Shown in pieces: positions 1,338 to 3,896 of a stretch of 64,000 nucleotides of DNA. Position 1 is the stretch's first letter. Each line of letters starts with the position of its first letter. Made by a program: the position numbers and the translations under genes. The notes under the pieces were generated by a model, which made no database searches, was not told the DNA's origin, and worked only from the letters and a program-made list of their open reading frames with translations. This DNA comes from Nitratifractor sp. (GTDB taxonomy: Bacteria > Campylobacterota > Campylobacteria > Campylobacterales > Sulfurovaceae): NCBI GenBank assembly GCA_015488535.1, contig WFNP01000074.1, positions 1-64,000 on the forward strand, given 5' to 3'.

Positions 1338-2212
1338 GAGTAATTATTGTAGAAAATGAGCTATATTTAGCCCAAAGTATAGCATCAAAATTGAGTGAAT
1401 ATCACTTTGAGACAGAGATATTCAGCTCAGTAAAAGAGGCTATGAACAGTAACGGAGATGTATATCTCATATCAACCAATCTGCCAGGACAGAACTTTAT
1501 GCCACTCATTGAGAAATTTGCAGACAGAGATATTATATTGATGGTCAATTATATCAACAATGATACTGTAGGAGAGCCTCTAAAAAGAGGAGCCAAAGAT
1601 TATATAGTAAAACCATTTATTATAGAAGAGTTGGTAAGGAAAATAGAGCATTATCATAAATTTAGACAGCTTCAGGAGAAAAACAACTTTTATGAAGATT
1701 ATATCTCTATGCTGTTTGCTGAACTAAATTGTGATATTGACCCTCTCAAACTGCCAATTCCTGTAGTAATTCGCACAAACTATCTGAGAATGGCAGACAA
1801 GATAGCATTGACACTAAACAGCAAATATGCACTCACATATATATCTTTGCAAAGAGATGATTGGCAAAAAAAGATAAGCAAACTCTCAAACAAAAAGATA
1901 GCATATATAGTCCATCTGGAAAAACTGAAAAAGGGTGAGATAGAAAAACTTTTTGAAATGCTCAAAGATAAAAAATTTATCTTGACAGATGCATCATGCT
2001 CCATAGAGACTCCATTTAAAACTATCACTATAGAATCTGAAAACAAACTGTATGACCAAAATGAAATTTTGACTATTGATGAGTATGTCAAATATATAGT
2101 AAAAAATTTCCAATACAAATTTCCAGATACAGAATTGAGCAAAAGACTTGGAATATCCCGCAAAAGTCTATGGGAAAAAAGGAAAAAATATGACCTCTTC
2201 AAGAAAAAATAA
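1334..2212 (+). CDS. Orphan, phosphorylation-atypical response regulator, HP1021/CemR-like
   Basis: Receiver-like N-terminus with Fis-type HTH at the C-terminus (LSKRLGISRKSLWEKRKKY); located directly after ispDF as in Helicobacter/Campylobacter. Confidence 0.8.
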   Translation: MRVIIVENELYLAQSIASKLSEYHFETEIFSSVKEAMNSNGDVYLISTNLPGQNFMPLIEKFADRDIILMVNYINNDTVGEPLKRGAKDYIVKPFIIEELVRKIEHYHKFRQLQEKNNFYEDYISMLFAELNCDIDPLKLPIPVVIRTNYLRMADKIALTLNSKYALTYISLQRDDWQKKISKLSNKKIAYIVHLEKLKKGEIEKLFEMLKDKKFILTDASCSIETPFKTITIESENKLYDQNEILTIDEYVKYIVKNFQYKFPDTELSKRLGISRKSLWEKRKKYDLFKKK

Positions 2213-3380
2213 AGCTCTCTTTATAGATACAGAAGCTCTCTCAACACTTGCTCTTGTCCAAGAGGGTCTGCTCTCTCCGGTAGATGCTCTTATGGACAAA
2301 GAAACAGCCCAAAAGGTAGATAAAGAAAAACACTACAAAGGTGTTCCATTTCCGTTTTCATTTATACTGGCTCCCACAGGAAAGAGAAACAGTGAAGTAA
2401 TAAAGTCACTAAAAATTGGTGAAACTGTAGATTTGATATCTCAAAACAGACTCGTAGGTGAATTAAAAGTAGAAGATATATTTACTGTAGATCCACATGA
2501 GAGACTACTAAATATCTACGGCACCGCTGACCCATCACACCCCGGTGTCAGAAATACACTGCCAAGACTCGGAGAGTGGGCAGTCAGTGGTCCATACAGA
2601 GTTGAATATCCACTCATTAAAGATACTGTAAACAGAGTCAAAGAGATGATTAGGCGAACAGGTGCCAAAAAGATATCATCTATGATGTTGGCTGCAAATC
2701 CTATAAACAGAGCTCATGAAAGAATGATTAGACAAAGTATCAGTGAAGCTGATTTGATGGTGCTTTTTCTTAGAAAACCTTTTACAGAAGAGGGATTGAG
2801 ATATGATATCAGACTCAATGCACTCAATCTGTTTATAGATAATTTTTTACCCAGAAACAAAGTGGTAGTGATACCATTTGAAAACAGTTATATATTTGCC
2901 GGATATAATGAGATGGTATTAGATGCAATACTTGCCAAAAATTACGGGTGCAGTGAATTGGTAATAGGCAAAAATCACGCAGGACTCGGACTCTATTATG
3001 ACCAAAACAGACTAAATACAATATTTGATACACTCAGTGGAATAGATATCAAAATTACTACAGTAGATGAGTATGTATATTGTGATACATGCCGGACACT
3101 AGTCAGTACCCAGACATGTCCACATGGGCAACACCACCATATACACTACCACTCCCAATCTATAATGACACTGATTCAAAACGGTCTGTTGCCTCCTACA
3201 ATTTTGGTACGCAAAGAGATATCTGCCAATATAATATCAGCTCTCTTTCCAAACAGATTTGAAAATCTACAAGAGCTATACTACTCTCTGATGCCAAGCT
3301 CCGGACTGTTGGAGACAAAAAGCGATGAGCAGTTTTATGAAAAATTGATGAAACTCTATCAGACAAGTTCACTCACATAA
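2190..3380 (+). CDS. Sulfate adenylyltransferase (ATP sulfurylase)-family protein with divergent active-site motifs
   Basis: Full-length Sat-like fold by eye (ADPSHPGV, NPINRAHE, GKNHAGLGLYYD, zinc motif CDTC...CPHG). The ORF track starts at 2148; the internal Met at 2190 is the likelier start. Confidence 0.8.
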   Translation: MTSSRKNKALFIDTEALSTLALVQEGLLSPVDALMDKETAQKVDKEKHYKGVPFPFSFILAPTGKRNSEVIKSLKIGETVDLISQNRLVGELKVEDIFTVDPHERLLNIYGTADPSHPGVRNTLPRLGEWAVSGPYRVEYPLIKDTVNRVKEMIRRTGAKKISSMMLAANPINRAHERMIRQSISEADLMVLFLRKPFTEEGLRYDIRLNALNLFIDNFLPRNKVVVIPFENSYIFAGYNEMVLDAILAKNYGCSELVIGKNHAGLGLYYDQNRLNTIFDTLSGIDIKITTVDEYVYCDTCRTLVSTQTCPHGQHHHIHYHSQSIMTLIQNGLLPPTILVRKEISANIISALFPNRFENLQELYYSLMPSSGLLETKSDEQFYEKLMKLYQTSSLT

Positions 3381-3389
3381 AGGATATAT

Positions 3390-3896
3390 ATGAACAAATT
3401 TTCTGTGCAAATGCTGTTTTTGAGTTTTTTTGGCAGTGGATATGCACCAAAAGCACCAGGCACGGTAGGAACACTGGCATCTATGCCATTGGGCATATTG
3501 ATAATATACTATTTGGGACTACAAAGCCTGTTTATGCTGACATTTGCTATTACAATTATAGGTATCATAGAGGTAAACAAGTATGAAAACAAAAATAACT
3601 CACATGATGAATCATGGATAGTGATAGATGAGACAGCAGGTATCTGGCTGACAATGGTAATATCACTCTATGGTTTGACACATTACAATATACCATATGG
3701 AGAAGTTATAGCATTGACAGGAAGTTTTATATTTTTCAGACTCTTTGATATATGGAAACCCTCCACTATCGGTTGGATAGACAAAAATCTCAAAGGTGGA
3801 TTGGGTGTAATGTTAGATGATATCTTGGCGGGATTTGCAGCAGGGTTGTTAAACCTGCTGTTATTTAAGATATTTGCAGAGTTTGGTCTGATTTAG
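3390..3896 (+). CDS. pgpA: Phosphatidylglycerophosphatase A
   Basis: GSGYAPKAPGTVGTLASMPLG and DIWKPSTIGWIDKNLKGGLGVMLDDILAG motifs. Confidence 0.93.
   Translation: MNKFSVQMLFLSFFGSGYAPKAPGTVGTLASMPLGILIIYYLGLQSLFMLTFAITIIGIIEVNKYENKNNSHDESWIVIDETAGIWLTMVISLYGLTHYNIPYGEVIALTGSFIFFRLFDIWKPSTIGWIDKNLKGGLGVMLDDILAGFAAGLLNLLLFKIFAEFGLI

Follow-up and report, generated by a model that had tools for sequence, protein, structure and literature searches.

SatL, a divergent protein of the ATP-sulfurylase fold encoded beside the regulator CemR, retains its zinc site and has altered nucleotide-binding signatures in most Campylobacteria

Analysis of a 64,000-nucleotide stretch of Nitratifractor sp. DNA (contig WFNP01000074.1; hereafter the window) identified a 396-residue protein, SatL, that adopts the predicted fold of ATP sulfurylases (Sats) and that, judging from its sequence, is not expected to make APS. 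The gene, satL (elsewhere annotated as sat), lies on the forward strand, as do its subregions and its neighbors ispDF, cemR and pgpA described below, and extends from an ATG at position 2190 to a stop codon ending at 3380. SatL would be an old branch of the ATP-sulfurylase family, fixed in the Campylobacteria class, in which APS production has been lost. The loss of its catalytic parts, the retention of the zinc site, the appearance of new invariant residues and the strong conservation of the protein imply that it performs some other job. We infer an absence of catalysis and the location of a functional face, and consider it somewhat probable that SatL is a pseudoenzyme-like zinc protein, rather than a sulfurylase, acting through a face made up of the zinc site, the HHH cluster and the C-terminus.

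Profile searches delimited two regions in the window protein: a PUA-like N-terminal domain at residues 5-136 (positions 2202 to 2597; Pfam PF14306, PUA_2, 64 bits) and an ATP-sulfurylase catalytic-fold region at residues 145-349 (2622 to 3236; PF01747, 188 bits). Scores against the NCBIfam Sat models fall far below their cut-offs (185.6 bits for a cut-off of 387, and 120.3 bits for a cut-off of 322.95). SatL is the sole PF01747 protein found by profile search in its own genome, and its sequence matches in the PDB are sulfurylases without exception. The AlphaFold model of the protein (mean pLDDT 87, pTM 0.84) contains the PUA-like and HUP domains that define the Sat fold, and its top Foldseek matches were all Sats (8a8d, TMt 0.79; 1v47, TMt 0.85), with NMNAT and phosphopantetheine adenylyltransferases (PPAT) as secondary matches at a TMq of about 0.3. 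Together with the zinc ligands described below, these results bear out the initial annotation of this DNA, which had described the protein as a full-length relative of homodimeric Sats that includes their zinc site.

Motifs were read in an alignment with 13 to 14 genuine Sats, of which 13 (eight from plasmids and five from the Campylobacteria class) were counted, and SatL residues were tallied over 155 distinct relatives. The window protein reads L167-A-A-N-P-I-N-R-A-H-E177 (2688 to 2720) at the QTRNPxHRAHE site and G260-K-N-H-A-G265 (2967 to 2984) at the GRDHAG site, letter for letter as initially described. The concern raised at that time, that the motifs might merely be shifted, was addressed by alignment, and misalignment is ruled out because the SatL positions fall in the same columns as those of genuine Sats. 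Neither the Gln nor the Arg of QTRN occurs in any relative (0/155 for both; 12/13 and 13/13, respectively, in Sats), and their loss can thus be ascribed neither to chance nor to one bad gene. At GRD, Arg is found in 15/155 and Asp in 1/155 relatives, both residues being present in 13/13 Sats. The initial list of altered signatures, correct as far as it went, missed a third loss: the SGTxxR phosphate loop of Sats reads HSQSIM in the window protein (3150 to 3167), no Thr appears among the letters listed for the 155 relatives at the SGT position (13/13 in Sats), and the MRYAGPREA segment of Sats is also replaced in SatL.

All that remains of the QTRN-containing motif is Arg174 and His176-Glu177, which are near-invariant across SatL; among relatives, Asn170 is free to vary, as are the two phosphate-binding loops. 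The first His of HxxH had been grouped with the lost Gln and Arg. It is indeed missing from the window protein, but is kept in 64/155 relatives (Asn in 89 and Thr in 2; the second His is present in 154/155), and both tree and alignment place its loss in separate lineages (f1 and f3g10, which have Asn, and f2g9 and f3g56, which have Thr; f1 to f13 are numbered families standing for taxa within the class). Its loss here is therefore lineage-specific, whereas those of Gln, Arg, GRD and SGT are family-wide. The Cys3His zinc ligands of Thermus-type Sats, in contrast to these lost motifs, are present by sequence in 155/155 relatives, forming in the window protein a knuckle (C298-x2-C301-x8-C310-P-H312, followed by Gly; 3081 to 3125) for which zinc is the predicted metal.

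Conservation was examined in a sample of one or more SatL sequences per genus (55 sequences, 13 families). Near-invariant positions comprise the zinc knuckle, the family-specific stretch CPHGxHHHxxY (residues 310-320; 3117 to 3149), G332, P335-P336, R341, S345 and R356, together with G372, F382 and Y383 in a conserved C-terminal extension that Sats lack (residues 353-396; 3246 to 3377; ...GLLE...FYxxLMxLYQTSSLT). Those specific to the SatL family include P311, G313, H315-H317, Y320, P336, R356, G372, F382 and Y383. From Sat to SatL, mean conservation falls in the QTRN loop (0.90 to 0.71) and in the GRD loop (0.94 to 0.66) and rises in the zinc/His region (0.55 to 0.79), indicating that constraint has shifted away from the nucleotide pocket. 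Median dN/dS is 0.033 for satL (25 close pairs), 0.043 for cemR and 0.117 for pgpA; such strong purifying selection is not that of a decaying gene and rules out a pseudogene.

These observations are consistent with a protein in which Sat-type adenylyl transfer is probably absent and the Sat fold would serve as a scaffold, with function residing on the zinc knuckle, the adjacent invariant HHHxxY cluster and the new C-terminal extension, a face to which a partner, a ligand or a second metal may bind. Counting against a pseudoenzyme, the near-invariance of Arg174, His176 and Glu177 means that some pocket chemistry could survive. The main rival, that SatL is an enzyme with a new reaction, either transferring nucleotidyl groups to another acceptor or acting through its His cluster and His176 as a metal-dependent hydrolase or transferase, builds on these three residues, on the first HxxH His where it is kept, on the strong purifying selection and on the HHHxxY cluster, which lies beside the zinc knuckle and could form a second metal site; we regard it as quite possible, though less probable than a pseudoenzyme. 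The secondary matches to NMNAT and PPAT also point in this direction, but at their low TMq they reflect a shared superfamily fold only, and neither the first His nor Asn170 nor either phosphate loop is fixed. Of the two roles put forward by the initial annotation, nucleotidyl transfer is on these grounds the less likely, and a regulatory or scaffolding role appears to fit better.

Binding of nucleic acids through the PUA-like domain and the zinc knuckle is improbable. The domain itself and a basic SSRKN N-terminus would suit such a function, but Sats, which carry the PUA-like domain, are not known to bind RNA, and in SatL it is poorly conserved in genus g23 and absent from three genomes of genus g57, which retain the zinc/C-terminal half. 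The g57 form, at 275 residues, still yields a confident model (pLDDT 83), and residues 140-396 are therefore probably the functional core of the protein. N-terminal variation of other kinds was also observed: two loci (L149:7877-9727 and L161:6989-8794) encode a SatL extended, at or near its N-terminus, by about 200 residues of low complexity, and in L144 (genome G048) the N-terminal part is frame-disrupted, with three TGA codons within the profile match.

Of 397 genomes of the class, 307 gave a PF01747 match. Approximately 305 of the 397, counted by scores (motifs having been read in the 155 sequences), carry SatL in one copy; G121 has a genuine Sat only, and the match in G376 is noise. Genuine Sats, scoring 248-281 bits to PF01747, occur in six genomes of the class, five of which also carry SatL. 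In a phylum sample, a SatL profile separated the two cleanly: SatL proteins of full or nearly full length scored 343-665 bits, and a genuine Sat 175 bits. A tree of Sat homologs with motifs mapped onto it, as had been suggested, sets SatL and all Sats on two sides of one long branch (SH-aLRT 100), with the motif losses family-wide on the SatL side, and rules out a recent copy of a genuine Sat. SatL lineages largely track families, and the sequence evidence fits a history of one divergence, vertical inheritance and repeated losses. Genera without SatL belong mostly to f2, f5 and f6, and Helicobacter-like lineages live without it. A species-level genome collection gave 443 matches to SatL, and the 80 best, the only ones listed by name, all came from Campylobacterota; SatL may thus also occur beyond the phylum. 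No SatL was found on viral contigs.

Sulfate activation in the class is carried out by CysDN or, rarely, by a true Sat beside an APS kinase. The genuine Sats of the class (L191, L192, L193, L194 and L172) adjoin a pyruvate-kinase-like gene in capsule-type loci, in most cases with an APS kinase gene just upstream. No gene for APS kinase or reductase accompanies satL in this way; its neighbors are ispDF, cemR and pgpA or, in f6, other genes. Among 68 genomes surveyed, CysH was present in 17, every one of them with CysD (17/17); 33 of the 58 SatL genomes have neither, and SatL and CysH show no association (Fisher p 0.25, uncorrected for phylogeny). The initial claim that no other sulfate gene lies nearby holds for the neighborhood but not for the genome, which carries cysD-cysN-kinase-cysC-cysQ on another contig (C42; L236:7507-12189, with a membrane/kinase gene between cysN and cysC). 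No CysH (APS/PAPS reductase) scored above cut-off in this genome, and the cluster probably supplies PAPS for sulfation rather than for sulfate assimilation. That SatL is a sulfurylase of sulfate assimilation, whether ordinary or slightly altered, as its fold, its RefSeq annotation (sulfate adenylyltransferase) and two published readings would have it (a lone sat called 'conspicuous' in a sulfate-activation reconstruction, PMC4674564; a Sat-type ATPS counted in Sulfurimonas, PMC4584964), is very unlikely given the loss of substrate motifs across 155 relatives, the sub-threshold NCBIfam scores, the 33 genomes above and the performance of this reaction by CysDN with CysH or by a true Sat with CysC.

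In the window, satL is preceded by ispDF (192 to 1337; profile matches) and by cemR, encoding an HP1021-type orphan response regulator (1334 to 2212), and is followed by pgpA (3390 to 3896; Pfam), encoding phosphatidylglycerophosphatase A. As initially noted, the block is conserved: the order ispDF-cemR-satL-pgpA recurs in nearly all loci and genera examined across the class. In most loci satL begins within cemR, overlapping its end by about 22 bases (23 bases, 2190-2212, in the window), which suggests that the two genes are translationally coupled. No Rfam element was detected in the operon at the gathering threshold. About 105 bases upstream of ispDF, the intergenic segment 8-86 of the window consists of a perfect heptamer tandem repeat (AATGCCC, 11.3 copies), a possible slippage-prone site.

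In three f6 genera satL is found outside the cemR block. A small lipoprotein gene adjoins it in all three loci, and was rejected as the source of a SatL partner since its family occurs in 69/74 genomes whether or not SatL is present. Nearly all tested genomes that lack SatL retain an intact CemR, which rules out an obligate dependence of CemR on SatL. Together with the relocated f6 genes, this indicates that CemR needs no SatL and that their link may be operonic only; the operon structure gives a weak indication of a functional one. No visible substitute for satL was found in most SatL-lacking genomes examined, where cemR is followed directly by pgpA and the gene order is usually ispDF-cemR-pgpA; in one satL-less genome (L230:6040-6962), the cemR-pgpA gap holds fragments resembling a broken kdsB. 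At the position of the CemR redox cysteine, DD+19 (PMC12632262), Cys is conserved in nearly every genus tested, but each of the six genera in the family to which the window belongs has Thr or Ile instead, and a Cys redox switch is thus probably absent there, to judge by these residues.

The same place in the locus is occupied in Campylobacter jejuni by Cj1609, annotated as a sulfate adenylyltransferase and matched to satL by locus order, which follows IspDF (Cj1607) and CemR (Cj1608) (PMC4435418, PMC11334517). TraDIS calls for this gene differed between species: essential in both C. jejuni and C. coli, but not essential in the tested strains of C. lari and C. hyointestinalis (PMC10077673); the essentiality could reflect polarity on pgpA. 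Our literature searches found no functional study of Cj1609 and no work joining pseudoenzymes with ATP sulfurylase. If translationally coupled with the redox regulator CemR, SatL might act as an adaptor or sensor for the operon's control of stress and energy. A more far-reaching proposal, doubtful at present, is that a class-wide metalloprotein, essential in C. jejuni and derived from a gutted sulfurylase, supplies the CemR/HP1021 energy-redox regulator with its missing partner or signal input, or else performs a reaction new to this fold. The database name of SatL is very probably wrong, for a gene that is present in most Campylobacteria and that TraDIS scores as essential in two major human pathogens. 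Published reconstructions of sulfate activation use satL, and its correction alters inferences on the sulfur cycle. The correction also opens a neglected essential gene to direct testing, the question being the role, beside CemR, of a sulfurylase that is strongly conserved yet catalytically stripped.

Among the known systems closest to SatL is the homodimeric zinc ATP sulfurylase (Thermus thermophilus 1v47, Methanothermococcus 8a8d; PF01747), with which it shares the whole fold, the PUA-like domain and the Cys3His site. SatL differs from it in lacking QTRN, GRD, SGTxxR and MRYAGPREA, in adding CPHGxHHHxxY and a 44-residue C-terminal extension, and in its gene neighbors. The Sat of Campylobacter capsule loci, where its neighbors are genes for an APS kinase and a pyruvate-kinase-like protein (PMC2993937), belongs to the same superfamily and sometimes to the same genome, but unlike SatL it has all Sat motifs, measures about 350 residues, is sporadic in distribution and scores 248-281 bits to PF01747. 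The CysDN heterodimer, the usual sulfate-activating enzyme of the class, adjoins cysH where cysH exists; its fold is unrelated to that of SatL, and the two have only their annotated reaction in common.
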